From: a virus
Length of the DNA stretch: 47,062 nucleotides
Virus record (IMG/VR): IMGVR_UViG_3300047562_003516
Coordinates: 1-47,062 of that record
Strand: one strand, 5' to 3'
Position 1 is the stretch's first letter. Every line of letters begins with the position of its first letter. Both the position numbers and the translations under genes were made by a program. Positions 11,013 to 33,809 of this stretch are shown here, one piece after another. The notes beneath the pieces were generated by a model. It was given only the letters and a program-made list of their open reading frames with translations, was not told the DNA's origin and searched no databases.

Positions 11013-11708
11013 ATGCCTCAGGGACCAGGCCCATTTGAATGGGAAAAGAATAAAAACACTAGTGAGTGGGAAGCAAAGGAATTAGAGCCAGAAAAATATG
11101 ATGGACGGAAGACAATTAGTGATTTTGCTCCTTTATTCAGAAATTTAGCTCAAACATCTCATTATGAAGTGAAGTTTGGTGGTCTACCTTTAGGACTGAC
11201 AACATTTTTGGCGGCAAGGGGGGTTGATAGTGATTTCATTACTGATGATTTTGGATTATTATGTACTGATGCTTATATCCCAACTTCTTATCTTATGACT
11301 AGTACTGTTAGGGGAAATTATACTGGAATGATTGAAAAATTTGCCCAAGCTAGAAATTATGGAGAAAATTTATCTCTAACTTTTTATGTAGATAGAAACT
11401 ATAAATCTATAATGCTTTTGGAATCTTGGATTGAATATATTTCTAGTGGTTCTTATACTTCAACAAACTCTTCAATAATAACTCAGCCTGGATATTTTTC
11501 TAGAATTCAATATCCTGATGATTATAAAAGCGATAAGAGTTCTATAACAAAATTCGATAAAGATTATAAAAAACTATTGACGTATACTTTTATCGGATTA
11601 TTTCCTTCGCAAATGGATCCAATTACAGTATCTTATAATGAGTCTCAAATATTAAAAGTGTCAGCAACATTTTCATATGATAGATATATTGTGACGCCTG
11701 TTGGATAA
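11013..11708 (+). CDS. Tail-tube-fold protein (gp54/gp19-like)
   Basis: A 231-aa protein. LSLTFYVDRNYKSIMLLESW, a linker, then YTFIGLFPSQMDPITVSYNE and VSATFSYDRYIV follow the strand order seen in T4 gp19 and gp54: a beta sheet beginning with a 'x-F-x-V-D' strand, a W-containing helix, and a final V-x-F-x-Y strand. It probably forms or initiates the tail tube. gp54 (initiator) is favoured from position beside gp4, gp48 and gp26, but a tube-protein paralogue cannot be excluded. Only 35 bp separate its ATG from that of gp4 on the other strand. Confidence 0.65.
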   Translation: MPQGPGPFEWEKNKNTSEWEAKELEPEKYDGRKTISDFAPLFRNLAQTSHYEVKFGGLPLGLTTFLAARGVDSDFITDDFGLLCTDAYIPTSYLMTSTVRGNYTGMIEKFAQARNYGENLSLTFYVDRNYKSIMLLESWIEYISSGSYTSTNSSIITQPGYFSRIQYPDDYKSDKSSITKFDKDYKKLLTYTFIGLFPSQMDPITVSYNESQILKVSATFSYDRYIVTPVG

Positions 11709-11744: not shown

Positions 11745-12461
11745 ATGCCATTACCTAAAATTGCAACTCCAACTTATGAGTTGACTTTACCATCAACTAA
11801 AAAAACAATAAAATTTAGACCTTTTTTAGTTAAAGAAGAAAAAATTCTAATTATTGCTCAAGAGTCCGAAGACCTTAAACAAATTAATAATGCAATCAAA
11901 AATGTAATATCTAATTGCATTTTAACTAGGGGAGTTAAAGTTGATAATTTAGCAACTTTTGATATTGAATATTTGTTTTTAAATATTCGTGGAAAATCTG
12001 TTGGAGAATCTGTAGAGGTTCTAATTACTTGCCCTGATGATGGAGAAACCAAAGTTCCTGTTGAAATTAATTTAGACGATATTAAGGTAAAAATTGATCC
12101 AAAGCATTCTAGAGACATTAAACTAGATGATTCCTTTACACTTAGAATGAAATATCCTTCAATGAATGAATTTATTAAAGATAATTCTATTCAAGATCAA
12201 ATGGATATTACTCAAACTTTTGATCTCATATCTTCTTGTATTGATACTGTATATAATGAAGATGAATCATGGTCTGCTGCAGAATGTACTAAAAAGGAAT
12301 TATTGGAATTTTTGGATCAACTTAGTCCAGCTCAATTTAAAGAGGTTGAATTATTTTTTGAAACTATGCCAAAAATATCTCATGAGTTAGTTTTAACAAA
12401 TCCAAAAACAGGTTTTGAAAATAAAATAACATTAGAAGGGTTATCATCTTTTTTCGGCTAG
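11745..12461 (+). CDS. gp26: gp26-like baseplate hub / tail assembly protein
   Basis: A 238-aa protein starting MPLPKIATPTYELTLPSTKK; the upstream TTG at 11709 is rejected because it lies over the late promoter. Blocks KFRPFLVKEEKILIIAQESED, FDIEYLFLNIRGKSVGE and LITCPDDGETKVPVEI match the T4 gp26 baseplate family. The gene ends with TCT TTT TTC GGC TAG, which includes a T-TTT-TTC slippery heptamer; the -1 frame stays open into the next ORF. A longer gp26 fusion is therefore likely (see 12449-12488). Its place just ahead of the tape measure resembles gene G in lambda. Confidence 0.83.
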   Translation: MPLPKIATPTYELTLPSTKKTIKFRPFLVKEEKILIIAQESEDLKQINNAIKNVISNCILTRGVKVDNLATFDIEYLFLNIRGKSVGESVEVLITCPDDGETKVPVEINLDDIKVKIDPKHSRDIKLDDSFTLRMKYPSMNEFIKDNSIQDQMDITQTFDLISSCIDTVYNEDESWSAAECTKKELLEFLDQLSPAQFKEVELFFETMPKISHELVLTNPKTGFENKITLEGLSSFFG

Positions 12462-12488
12462 GAATGTCGCATGAGAGTCTTGCGACAT
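12449..12488 (+). promoter_or_regulatory. Programmed -1 ribosomal frameshift signal
   Basis: The slippery heptamer T TTT TTC is in the zero frame of gp26 (12449-12455). After an 8-nt spacer comes a perfect 8-bp hairpin: ATGTCGCA (12464-12471) and TGCGACAT (12481-12488), loop TGAGAGTCT. The zero-frame TAG is at 12459. The -1 frame is open from 12425 to 12640, so slippage would add 63 residues from 12452 on. Heptamer, spacing and stem fit the classical -1 PRF layout. The hairpin also holds the ATG at 12464. Confidence 0.6.
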
Positions 12489-12640
12489 ATTATCAAGTAA
12501 ATTTTGCCCTTGTCCAGCATCATAAATATTCTTTGACAGAGATTGAAAATATGATTCCCTGGGAAAAAGAAGTTTATGTATCATTATTGCAGCAATATAT
12601 TGAAGAAGAAAATTTAAAAAATAAGAATAGGGCATCATAA
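12464..12640 (+). CDS. Small tail-assembly chaperone-like ORF (-1 frame extension of gp26)
   Basis: A 58-aa product MSHESLATYYQVNFALVQHH, then YSLTEIENMIPWEKEVYVSL and a Glu-rich helical end. It begins 3 bases after the gp26 stop, in the -1 frame, with no ribosome binding site; its ATG is in the base of a hairpin. It may be made alone, or as a C-terminal extension of gp26 by frameshifting, like the T part of lambda G-T. The 'MIPWE' helix recalls tail assembly chaperones and the small gp28/gp51-region proteins of T4. It directly precedes the tape-measure candidate. Confidence 0.68.
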   Translation: MSHESLATYYQVNFALVQHHKYSLTEIENMIPWEKEVYVSLLQQYIEEENLKNKNRAS

Positions 12641-12643
12641 TAA

Positions 12644-14509
12644 ATGGCACTACCATTATCCTCTATTGCATCGGGAATAAGAAACATTGGTTCCGCATTC
12701 AGTAGAACCAATGTTTCTTCGACTGCAATTAGAGGAACGCAGCCACTTACAAGAAATGAGTTTGTTCAACAATCTCAACAATTTGCACAAAATCAGCAAA
12801 AAAATCAAGCTGCTATTGGTGGAATTCAGCAACAATTCCAAGGATTGCAGCAACAAATCACAGTTTTGGCAAACGGAATTAATAACGTTGCCAAACTAAT
12901 ACAACAAGATACTACTTCAGAACAACAATTACTTAATAAGCAACAGCAAGAAGAAAAGGTATTTACCACAAGAAAAATAAGACGTGGTAGGGAAAGTGAA
13001 TTAGAGCAAAGAATTGAGAGTGCCGTAATGGCACCAGTTCAGGCAGCTGCAGCAAAAACTCAAGACATATTTGGAAGAGTTGGAAGGGCTCTCCAAATAA
13101 TGTTCTTTGGATTTCTTGGTGTCCAAGCATTGAAAATGCTTAAGGCCCTACGAGAGGGTGATGAGAATCTTCTTCAACAGATTAAAGATTTGATATTGAG
13201 GAACATTGGGTATGCTTTAGCAGCTTTAGCTGCAGTAAAAATTGGATTGCCTTTAATTGGTCTTGCCTTAAGAACTCTAGTAACAAAAGTTGTTGGATTT
13301 TTATTTAAAGGAATTTCCTCCATTTTGAAATCTGCTGTGACAAAAGCGGGCCAATTTATGGGGTCTATTGCAAGTAAAGTCATACCTGGATTAGGTGGAA
13401 GTACTAAAGCTGCTGGGGCAGGAACAAAATTAGCTCAAGAAGGGGCAGAAGCTGCTGCAAAGGGTGGGGCAAGAACTGCTGCAGCAGGATTTGGAAAATC
13501 TGCAGCAAAAACTGCTGGTAGAGGTATTTTAGGTTCTTTGCCTTTTGTTGGAACTGCATTAGATACCTGGGGTGCTGCTGAAGAATTATCTAAGGGTAAC
13601 CTCACTGGTGCTGGTTTATATGCAGCCGGTGCTGTAACAAGTTTAATCCCAGGAATGCAATTAGTATCTGGTGGTCTCAGTGTTGCTGCTTTAGGGCAAT
13701 CTTTAACATATAATCCAGAAGAAGAAAAGAAGAAAAAAGAACAATCTCCTCAGTCACAATCACAGCCACAAAGCACACCAAAATCAACTGCAACATCAAC
13801 AACGCCAACACCTTCAAGTCCACCAAAAGCTTCAACGCCACCAATAGCAATGCCCACTACCCCGGCATTGCCAAATTTGAATATGCCTAAAATGGGTGAA
13901 GAGAAAGAAGAGGAGGGTTCTACTTCACCAAAACCAATTCAGGGTATTATTACCCCAATTGAAGATAAAGATAAAAAGAATAAAAAGACGGAGAATGTTT
14001 CTTCATCACCTTCTCCATCAGTGCAGATTAATCAAAATATTCCAGAATCTTCTCCTCAAACATCTATGCTGCCGACAAAATCAGATTTATCTATAAGTCC
14101 TTCAGCAAATGGTGCGGTAAAACAAGATCCAGATTATTTAATGGCAGAATCTGAAATGTGGGGTGCGATTGCTGATGGATTAGAAATGGGGTTATCCTAT
14201 GAAGAATTGGGTATGGATCAGGCACAGATAGATTATGTGGAAGGTAAGACTAAAAACATTCCATATCTTGTAGATCAGATGGGTATTGAATCTGCAGGTC
14301 TGATAGAAACGCCTCAAAAAAAATTGCCTCAAATAAAGCCATTGGAAGAGCCATCTCCAAATGTAGTAGTTACTGCACCACAGCCATCAGGTTCCCAACA
14401 AGAACCACAAACGCAAATGCCCCAATCTGATATTCCCTTTATACCTTCAGCAAACCCTGATAATTTTTATGTGTTATATTCAAAATTAAACTATAATGTA
14501 ACGATGTAA
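12644..14509 (+). CDS. Tape-measure / gp29-like tail protein
   Basis: A 621-aa protein. Residues 40-90 are Gln-rich helix (QQSQQFAQNQQKNQ, GIQQQFQGLQQQ), then an Arg-rich segment, a long hydrophobic stretch (about residues 150-235, including IMFFGFLGVQALKM and ALAALAAVKIGLPLIGLAL), a Gly/Ala-rich part, a Pro/Ser/Thr-rich linker (about 360-490), and a C-terminal domain ending NPDNFYVLYSKLNYNVTM. Helical ends and a hydrophobic centre fit a tail-length protein such as T4 gp29 (590 aa), and it follows gp26 and its chaperone-like ORF. Direct homology to gp29 is not shown. The next protein shares its overall plan. Confidence 0.65.
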   Translation: MALPLSSIASGIRNIGSAFSRTNVSSTAIRGTQPLTRNEFVQQSQQFAQNQQKNQAAIGGIQQQFQGLQQQITVLANGINNVAKLIQQDTTSEQQLLNKQQQEEKVFTTRKIRRGRESELEQRIESAVMAPVQAAAAKTQDIFGRVGRALQIMFFGFLGVQALKMLKALREGDENLLQQIKDLILRNIGYALAALAAVKIGLPLIGLALRTLVTKVVGFLFKGISSILKSAVTKAGQFMGSIASKVIPGLGGSTKAAGAGTKLAQEGAEAAAKGGARTAAAGFGKSAAKTAGRGILGSLPFVGTALDTWGAAEELSKGNLTGAGLYAAGAVTSLIPGMQLVSGGLSVAALGQSLTYNPEEEKKKKEQSPQSQSQPQSTPKSTATSTTPTPSSPPKASTPPIAMPTTPALPNLNMPKMGEEKEEEGSTSPKPIQGIITPIEDKDKKNKKTENVSSSPSPSVQINQNIPESSPQTSMLPTKSDLSISPSANGAVKQDPDYLMAESEMWGAIADGLEMGLSYEELGMDQAQIDYVEGKTKNIPYLVDQMGIESAGLIETPQKKLPQIKPLEEPSPNVVVTAPQPSGSQQEPQTQMPQSDIPFIPSANPDNFYVLYSKLNYNVTM

Positions 14510-14510
14510 T

Positions 14511-16589
14511 ATGGCACAAATAACCAGAATCCCAACAAGATCTTTAGATATAAGTGGAATATCGAAATCATTTCAGATTTCGCAAAAAACATTAGCACAA
14601 ACACAAAAATCTATACAAAATATTAGTCAAGTACTTGTAAATCGTACTAAAGTTAGAAAACAATATTTTTCATCTATTTCCGAATCAAAACGGAAAAGAA
14701 ATATTAATACACTGAGAAGTGAAAGAGAGTCTGAATTAGAAGCAAAAAAAGTTGTTTTAGGTTCTTTATCTAATGTCACAAATGCAGTTTCTTCTGCTGG
14801 TGGAAGTTTACTTGGACGAATATTAAAAGCATTGGCATTTCTTGCGGCTGGATGGCTGTTAAAATATCTTCCTAGATGGATTGGATATGCAAAAGAATTT
14901 ATAGTGAGGGTAACTAAACTTGGTGAAATTATAAGGAGTTTTGTTGGCAATATTACTGGAATATTTCAATCAACTGGAAGATTATTGGGTGCAGTTAAAG
15001 ATAATTTATTAAATTTTGATTTATTTGATAGTGAAAAGAAAGTATCTACAACATTTAATGAACTTCGCACAAGTATTGATGGTGTTGGTAAAAATTTTGA
15101 AGAAGCAATAAATGTTTTTACTACAGACTTTACTAAGCAAGTTGATGGTGTTGAAGTTGGAACTTATAGTGAAGAGCCAATTCCGCCAGAAGGTGGTTAT
15201 CAGTCCGCAGGAAGAGGTATATATGCCCCAGGCAAGATACCTGAAAAAGTAAAATCTGATACTGCATTCACCCAAGGTGTAACTGAATTAGCTAAAAAGT
15301 ATAAAATTCCTGAGGATTATTTGTATGCTGTTATGGGATTTGAAACCGGCGGAACTTATGATCCAGCACAAAAAAATATGGCTGGTTCTGGTGCAACTGG
15401 ATTAATCCAATTTATGCCAAGTACTGCCAGGGGTTTAGGGACAAGTACAGATCAATTGTCAAAAATGTCAAGGGCAGAGCAATTAAAGTATGTTGACAAA
15501 TATTTTTCTGGAAAGGGTATAGAAGGTGGTTCTTTAAGTGATGTTTATATGTCGGTTTTATTTCCCGCAGCTGTTGGAAAGCCTGATGATTATGTTTTAT
15601 TTGGTAAAGGTGCTATGTCCGGATATACTGGAACTGCTTATGAACAAAATAAGGGATTAGATTTAAATAAAGATGGAAGCATCACCAAAGCTGAAGCATC
15701 TTCAAAAGTTGCAAAGTATTTGCCAAAAGATTTCGTTGCTCCAGAATCAACATCATCTCAGCAACCTGGGGGAAAAATTACAGCACAGGGAAGTACAACA
15801 AATACTAGTAAATTGCTTGCTGGTAATAAAGTTAGTGGATTTGAAGTTACTTCGCCATATGGACCTAGATGGGGTGGGTATCATAAAGGAGTTGATATTG
15901 GAACACCTGTAGGAACTTATATATCTTTAGGGGTTCCCGTAGAAATTTTATTTTCTGGATTGCATGGAAGTCCTGGTAAAGGATATGGAAACGTAATTGA
16001 TGCGTGGGCTCCAAGTCTGGGATTACAATTTAGAATGGCACACTTACAATCTTTAATTGCAAAAAAAGGACAAAAAGTTGCAGCAGGAGAAGTTCTTGGA
16101 AGAACTGGTGGTGCTCCAGGAGATCGTGGTGCTGGATCTTCTACAGGACCTCATGTCCACTTTGAAGTTGATAATGTAAAGGGAAGACCTAACTATGGTG
16201 GTATGGGTGATCCATCAGCATATGCTAAGTTCTTAGTATTGACTTCAAAAAAACCATCCCCAGAATCTATTTCTCAAGTAACTTCTACCCCCGTTTCTCC
16301 ACAACCTAAAGCACCATCGTTAACTCCAAAAGCACCATCACCTACAGTTCCACAACCTCAAATATCAGCAACCCCAACCCAACAAAAACAACAGGCAGTA
16401 GCCCAACAAATTGCACCTGAAAGAAAGGCACAAGATATTTCTGTTGTTATTCCACCACAACAGCAACAACAAGCACCTCAAGGGGGTGCAGAAGCTCCAC
16501 CTCAACAACCAGCAGCAGCACCATCCATTGGTGAACTGTTAAATAGATTTATGAAACAAAAACTCCTATTAGATCTTAGTTTCCTATAA
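14511..16589 (+). CDS. Tail lysin: transglycosylase plus EF-hand loop plus M23 peptidase
   Basis: A 692-aa protein. The helical N-terminus (1-190) is similar in style to the upstream tape-measure candidate. Residues about 250-400 form an SLT domain: YAVMGFETGG with catalytic Glu278, then GATGLIQFMPSTARGLG. Residues 384-395 (DLNKDGSITKAE) are a canonical EF-hand calcium loop. Residues about 440-580 form an M23/LytM peptidase with His458 and Asp462 (HKGVDIG), His511, and His548-x-His550 (GPHVHFEV). The C-terminus is Pro/Gln-rich. It can cleave both glycan strands and peptide crosslinks of the cyanobacterial wall during injection, replacing the lysozyme of T4 gp5, which is absent here. Confidence 0.88.
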   Translation: MAQITRIPTRSLDISGISKSFQISQKTLAQTQKSIQNISQVLVNRTKVRKQYFSSISESKRKRNINTLRSERESELEAKKVVLGSLSNVTNAVSSAGGSLLGRILKALAFLAAGWLLKYLPRWIGYAKEFIVRVTKLGEIIRSFVGNITGIFQSTGRLLGAVKDNLLNFDLFDSEKKVSTTFNELRTSIDGVGKNFEEAINVFTTDFTKQVDGVEVGTYSEEPIPPEGGYQSAGRGIYAPGKIPEKVKSDTAFTQGVTELAKKYKIPEDYLYAVMGFETGGTYDPAQKNMAGSGATGLIQFMPSTARGLGTSTDQLSKMSRAEQLKYVDKYFSGKGIEGGSLSDVYMSVLFPAAVGKPDDYVLFGKGAMSGYTGTAYEQNKGLDLNKDGSITKAEASSKVAKYLPKDFVAPESTSSQQPGGKITAQGSTTNTSKLLAGNKVSGFEVTSPYGPRWGGYHKGVDIGTPVGTYISLGVPVEILFSGLHGSPGKGYGNVIDAWAPSLGLQFRMAHLQSLIAKKGQKVAAGEVLGRTGGAPGDRGAGSSTGPHVHFEVDNVKGRPNYGGMGDPSAYAKFLVLTSKKPSPESISQVTSTPVSPQPKAPSLTPKAPSPTVPQPQISATPTQQKQQAVAQQIAPERKAQDISVVIPPQQQQQAPQGGAEAPPQQPAAAPSIGELLNRFMKQKLLLDLSFL

Positions 16590-33716: not shown

Positions 33717-33730
33717 TCTTAAGTCACAAT

Positions 33731-33805
33731 GCTGGTGTAGCCCAATTGGCAGGAGGCAGCAGACTCAAAATCTGAACAGTGTCGGTTCAAATCCGACCAC
33801 CAGTA
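33731..33805 (+). tRNA. tRNA-Leu (anticodon CAA)
   Basis: Acceptor arms GCTGGTG and CACCAGT (one G-T pair at the end) with discriminator A; D arm GCC/GGC around AATTGG; anticodon arm CAGA-CTCAAAA-TCTG with CAA at 33766-33768; T arm GTCGG-TTCAAAT-CCGAC. CCA is not encoded. The variable loop has only about 5 nt, shorter than in normal bacterial tRNA-Leu, and the first anticodon-stem pair (G-A) is mismatched. It would read TTG codons. Identity is assigned by anticodon only. Confidence 0.82.
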
Positions 33806-33809
33806 TTAA

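Follow-up and report, generated by a model that had tools for sequence, protein, structure and literature searches.

Comparative evidence for a programmed −1 frameshift joining gp26 and gp51 in T4-like cyanophages

Does the gp26 gene of T4-like cyanophages give rise to one protein or to two? In a marine cyanophage-like viral sequence of 47,062 nucleotides (IMG/VR record IMGVR_UViG_3300047562_003516, positions 1 to 47,062; hereafter the window), gp26 ends on a run of T and is followed in the −1 frame by a small open reading frame (ORF), the counterpart of cyanophage gp51. A first-pass annotation of this DNA had proposed that a programmed −1 frameshift fuses the two. We conclude that a −1 programmed ribosomal frameshift at the end of gp26 very probably yields short and long tail assembly chaperones (we put the probability at about 0.92), because the anatomy of the junction, its conservation, covariation in a downstream hairpin, homology to T4 gp51 and the split between single-copy and two-copy phages all point that way.

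Anatomy of the gp26–gp51 junction

The features of the locus, in window coordinates, are as follows.

11013..11708, + strand: tail tube-like gene upstream of gp26 (PF23849 Phage_TTP_2, E 2e-12; phrog_45 tail tube, E 4e-37)
11745..12461, + strand: gp26, the short chaperone (TAC-N), 238 aa (PF12322, phrog_150); stop TAG at 12459-12461
12449..12455, + strand: slippery heptamer T_TTT_TTC, by direct reading; TTTTTTC in 203 of 205 non-redundant relatives
12456..12463, + strand: 8-nt spacer GGCTAGGA, which holds the gp26 stop codon
12464..12488, + strand: putative stimulatory hairpin, from folding and from covariation in its own clade, with other stems elsewhere; arms ATGTCGCA (12464-12471) and TGCGACAT (12481-12488), 9-nt loop (12472-12480)
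12464..12640, + strand: small ORF, cyanophage gp51, the C-terminal extension (TAC-C), 58 aa from ATG 12464
11745..12640, + strand: predicted long product TAC-NC, about 298 aa, with T4 gp51 as full-length homologue; path 11745-12455, slip, 12455-12637; junction ...SSFF-RLG-MSHESLATYY...
12644..14509, + strand: protein of 621 aa, a tape-measure candidate from its position alone

The last codons of gp26 are ...TTA TCA TCT TTT TTC GGC TAG, which places T_TTT_TTC in the X_XXY_YYZ phase of the zero frame. Direct reading confirmed the elements described in the first-pass annotation, namely this heptamer in the phase of gp26, the spacer of 8 nt, the perfect hairpin of 8 bp and the open −1 frame ending at 12640. 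That frame is free of stops from 12425 to 12637 (its stop is 12638-12640), and base 12455 together with the spacer reads R-L-G in it. The start of gp26 is probably ATG 11745 (238 aa) and not the listed TTG 11709, because MPLPKI is conserved in relatives.

The gp26 protein matches PF12322 (T4_baseplate) over positions 1-218 of 219 (E 1.3e-73) as well as phrog_150 (E 1.5e-78). The small ORF, which tblastn located in 578 phage records, matches phrog_634 (E 5e-27), annotated as gp51 ‘baseplate hub assembly catalyst’, and the C-terminal part of phrog_150 (E 1.4e-6). No Shine–Dalgarno-like sequence occurs at a usable distance upstream of ATG 12464, because the bases there are the T run; this is a weak argument, since such motifs are sparse in the surrounding region anyway.

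The structural model of gp26 is good (pLDDT 87.6). Its resemblance to HK97 gp13 (TAC-N, PDB 2ob9) is weak (E 4.4-4.6, probability up to 0.28, 62 columns), a fold search of the PDB with the model gave no significant match, and a gp26 profile had no matches among the sequences of solved structures. When models of viral proteins were searched by fold, the named top matches were mostly gp26-like and baseplate proteins.

From the G/GT-type gene order, the window has the tail tube-like gene upstream and the second ORF in the −1 frame; the 621-aa protein encoded downstream has no match to a tape-measure family in Pfam and is weakly similar to the corresponding protein of P-SSM2. Its identity as the tape measure, just before which the first-pass annotation had placed the pair, is suggested by gene order. 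Across 12644-16589, both genes past gp51 (621 and 692 aa) are weakly similar to one P-SSM2 protein, and the 692-aa protein, which carries SLT and M23 domains, is weakly similar to an internal part of a single long S-SCSM1 protein; a split or duplicated tape measure is possible in the window. Elsewhere, the window carries a tRNA-Leu gene with anticodon CAA (33730-33806).

Conservation of the slippery site

We collected 241 loci from viral contigs and phage records, of which 205 were left after removal of redundancy; counts over these 205 are raw and include relatedness. In the larger set, the TTTTTT heptamer is present in 238 of 241 loci, and among the 236 loci in which gp51 is detectable, it occupies the −1 frame in 234. 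The hexamer TTTTTT occurs in all 205 non-redundant relatives, and the two that depart from TTTTTTC carry TTTTTTT or TTTTTTG. The codon that precedes Phe-Phe varies (Ser, Ala, Asn, Asp or Gly), and its third base is T in 205 of 205, where codon usage predicts 0.64 per genome. The Phe-Phe pair itself is written TTT TTC in 203 of 205, where about 0.2 is expected. Third-base conservation along the whole of gp26 peaks at the three positions within the heptamer (1.00, 1.00 and 0.99; the next is 0.91 and the median 0.58).

The surroundings of the site are similarly constant. The gp26 stop stands one codon past the heptamer in 200 of 205 relatives, and the −1 frame is open through gp51 in 204. A −1 stop abuts the heptamer in 6 of the 205, which confines the shift there to the heptamer. 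Loss of the heptamer and closure of the −1 frame had both been sought as evidence against the proposal; the former is essentially absent and the latter is found once. The relatives’ junctions, once aligned, keep the heptamer, constrain synonymous positions and keep a hairpin with compensatory changes, and the programmed −1 shift joining gp26 to the small ORF is thereby strongly supported by the comparison.

The one closure is in Synechococcus phage S-SCSM1 (L085 1484-1520), in which an 11-nt insertion follows the gp26 stop; the heptamer is intact, there is one copy of PF12322, and gp51 has an ATG of its own in the +1 frame. In a 236-kb contig (L047 3200-3391), a 2-nt deletion turns TTTTTTCGG into TTTTTGG, and gp26 and gp51 are in frame with each other, leaving no short form. 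Either change may be a sequencing error; the contig represents either such an error or loss of the short form. The predicted fold of its natural in-frame fusion is of low confidence.

A hairpin that differs between clades

In the window sequence taken by itself the stem folds and is moderately unusual (z −0.95 over 81 nt and −2.7 over 38 nt). Because this single-sequence fold is not exceptional, the significance of the hairpin rests on the relatives, in which the 38 nt past the heptamer fold with a mean of −9.6 kcal/mol and a median z of −2.8, compared with about −3 to −6 kcal/mol and median z of −0.9 to +0.6 in six control windows from the same genomes. Some relatives, a minority that includes S-RIM2 and ACG-2014d, have no strong hairpin directly after the site. 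An Rfam search of the junction returned a chance match only.

A single stem common to all clades failed when tested, because the stems differ by clade; stems were then tested clade by clade. The clade of the window has ATGGCKCA(9)TGMGTCAT plus outer pairs, a second has GGUCC(AUAU)GGACC, and a third has a stem like CUCUUCCA(8)UGGAAGGG. Compensated changes exceed those of slid or shuffled pairings in all three, under shuffle controls for folding and covariation that leave relatedness in; covariation in the third consists of a single compensated pair together with wobble changes. Within the window’s clade, the residue five codons on can be predicted from the silent third position of one Ala codon (GCT with Glu in 38, GCG with Ala in 23 and GCA with Val in 10), a coupling that is explained by the predicted RNA pairing and not by protein selection. 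On the gp26 tree this pair changed about 13 times and its single bases 11 and 12 times, so that most changes were joint. Few of the pair changes sit on well-supported branches, too few for the phylogenetically independent pairs there to reach significance, and nearly all run in the same direction.

We lean, by a little, towards the reading that marine T4-like phages share one fixed slippery site, and that the stimulatory hairpin beyond it has given way, clade by clade, to at least three stems that are unrelated to one another and covary internally. Such a stimulator would be previously undescribed; each lineage would have retuned it for cyanobacterial ribosomes, and, as it lies within coding sequence, its silent bases would evolve in concert with residue changes in the long chaperone.

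Weighing other explanations

The small protein could instead be made independently, by termination and reinitiation at ATG 12464, with the T run and the hairpin kept for another purpose. This ATG sits two bases past the gp26 stop, an ATG at +5 from that stop is found in 129 of 205 relatives, and S-SCSM1 has no other option, although conservation of the ATG in the window’s clade is not independent evidence, because the ATG also forms part of the stem. Against reinitiation, the conserved gp51 core is preceded by no in-frame ATG in 51 of 205 relatives and by none of ATG, GTG and TTG in 30, so the conserved independent start that was sought as a refutation of the frameshift is missing from many of them. 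The first −1 codon after the slip, between the heptamer and the gp26 stop, encodes Arg in 197 of 205 despite an overlapping gp26 residue that varies between Ala, Gly, Val, Ser and Glu. In addition, synonymous constraint within gp26 is strongest at the heptamer, and T4 carries both parts fused in one gene; we consider reinitiation very unlikely.

Runs of six T are possible sites of RNA polymerase slippage, and the fusion could in principle arise on the transcript and not on the ribosome. The run at the junction is nonetheless short, and its seventh base is C in 203 of 205 relatives even though TTT is the commoner Phe codon (73%), the opposite of what selection for a longer run would give; the X_XXY_YYZ phase and a covarying hairpin at ribosomal spacing fit the ribosome. 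Slippage by the polymerase thus seems less probable still. The pattern might also follow from conservation of Ser-Phe-Phe in the protein with no recoding, as FF at the end of gp26 is invariant at the protein level. Nine other conserved Phe columns of gp26, however, use a mixture of TTT and TTC, which the heptamer does not; changes at a silent base are matched, across the stem, by changes at a base that alters the residue; and −1 coding constraint is present between the heptamer and the stop. We give this explanation almost no weight.

The programmed ribosomal frameshift therefore remains our preferred reading, and on it, events at the junction would run as follows. Ribosomes translating gp26 would arrive at T_TTT_TTC, and most would add one codon and stop, giving the 238-aa TAC-N. 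A minority would be held by the hairpin 8 nt downstream, so that the tRNA-Phe in the P and A sites slip back by one base; these ribosomes, now in the −1 frame, would read past the gp26 stop and extend the chain by 61 residues to a TAC-NC of about 298 aa. That ribosomes do slip here is what we infer from comparison of the sequences. Both forms may serve as tail assembly chaperones on the tape measure or hub, in the manner of lambda gpG and gpGT, and a set ratio of short to long protein and binding to the tape measure would likewise be expected by analogy with lambda G/GT.

One gene or two in T4-like phages

T4 would obtain the same pair from two genes, the short form from gp26 and the long form from gp51. 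T4 gp26 (208 aa) has PF12322 but lacks the extension; T4 gp51 (249 aa), encoded separately and on the opposite strand, has PF12322 followed by the extension, and spans positions 13-280 of 282 in phrog_150 and 2-103 in phrog_634. By sequence, the predicted joined product resembles T4 gp51, and the short form resembles T4 gp26. Two copies of PF12322 are found in T4, RB43 and phiKT1024, none of which has the frameshift layout, and one copy in the other 17 of 20 whole records; the −1 ORF is present in all 17 single-copy records (in S-SCSM1 as a displaced relic). T4 gp51 is essential for assembly yet absent from the particle, and is grouped with gp26 among the hub assembly chaperones (PMC3004832), which fits a chaperone role.

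In Vibrio phage phiKT1024 (L096 811-2153) and in RB43 (L103 2001-3294), the short and long PF12322 genes are adjacent on one strand, unlike the divergent pair of T4, which suggests that phages with two genes arrange them in more than one way.

A −1 ORF past gp26 with the same MPW-type C domain also occurs in Ackermannviridae (Kuttervirus, Taipeivirus, Limestonevirus and Miltonvirus), for which we read the sequence just past the gp26 stop in L100, L247, L248, L249 and L251. ORFs of this type have tblastn matches in 282 phage records, are often unannotated or overlaid by other gene calls, and, in three of the five loci read, lack a start codon upstream of the core. The site there, NTT TTC ATY TAA, does not form a canonical heptamer, and expression through P-site slippage at TTC is possible.

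Relation to known systems

The slippery site of lambda differs from T_TTT_TTC. Phage P2 E/E′ (Christie et al. 2002) reportedly has a T-rich heptamer and a −1 shift in the two ORFs preceding the tape measure, and an abstract on T4-like chaperone genes is said to state that several T4-like groups keep frameshifting and that T4 uses genes 26 and 51. The gp26/gp51 pair of T4-like phages (TAC-N/TAC-NC) belongs to the same families as the pair described here (PF12322/phrog_150 and phrog_634), T4 differing in its use of two genes instead of a shift. Lambda G/GT (Levin et al. 1993; Xu et al. 2004) likewise comprises a short protein and a −1 frameshifted long protein encoded just upstream of the tape measure; its products are not in the virion, and we liken it to the present locus by layout. 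The TAC locus of Vandenendeviridae/Andersonviridae (phage Adele, PMC12846349) is from other phage families, and we found no claim of a covarying hairpin in the parts of that text available to us.

The first-pass annotation held that a G/GT-like pair in T4-like cyanophages was not described. The mechanism is borne out by the comparative evidence; the novelty is not, as T4-like tail assembly chaperone genes were identified earlier by Vladimirov, Gautam and Davidson (Virology 2022, 566:9-15), a study represented here by papers that cite it: PMC10885494, on the use of two genes by some T4-like phages, and PMC12846349 (2025), on poly-T signals for a −1 shift in the TAC-N genes of T4-like phages. 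The frameshifted chaperone pair is accordingly not new in kind and is a well-supported case of a reported mechanism. The covarying, clade-specific hairpin may be a new element; it does not appear in the available literature texts, which include Vladimirov et al. by way of those citing papers.

Implications for cyanophage gp51

Cyanophage gp51 was described as only about 20% of the length of other gp51 proteins, lacking the first ~200 residues (Sullivan et al. 2010, PMC3037559). A frameshift would explain this short gp51, with gp26 supplying the ~200 residues that it lacks. In cyanophage records, gp26 and gp51 are annotated separately, and gp51 is started at an internal codon or missed altogether; these records should have a joined coding sequence for gp26–gp51. 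Together with T4, the cyanophages would present one protein pair reached by two routes, recoding or gene duplication, and would offer a clean test of why the ratio of short to long protein matters.
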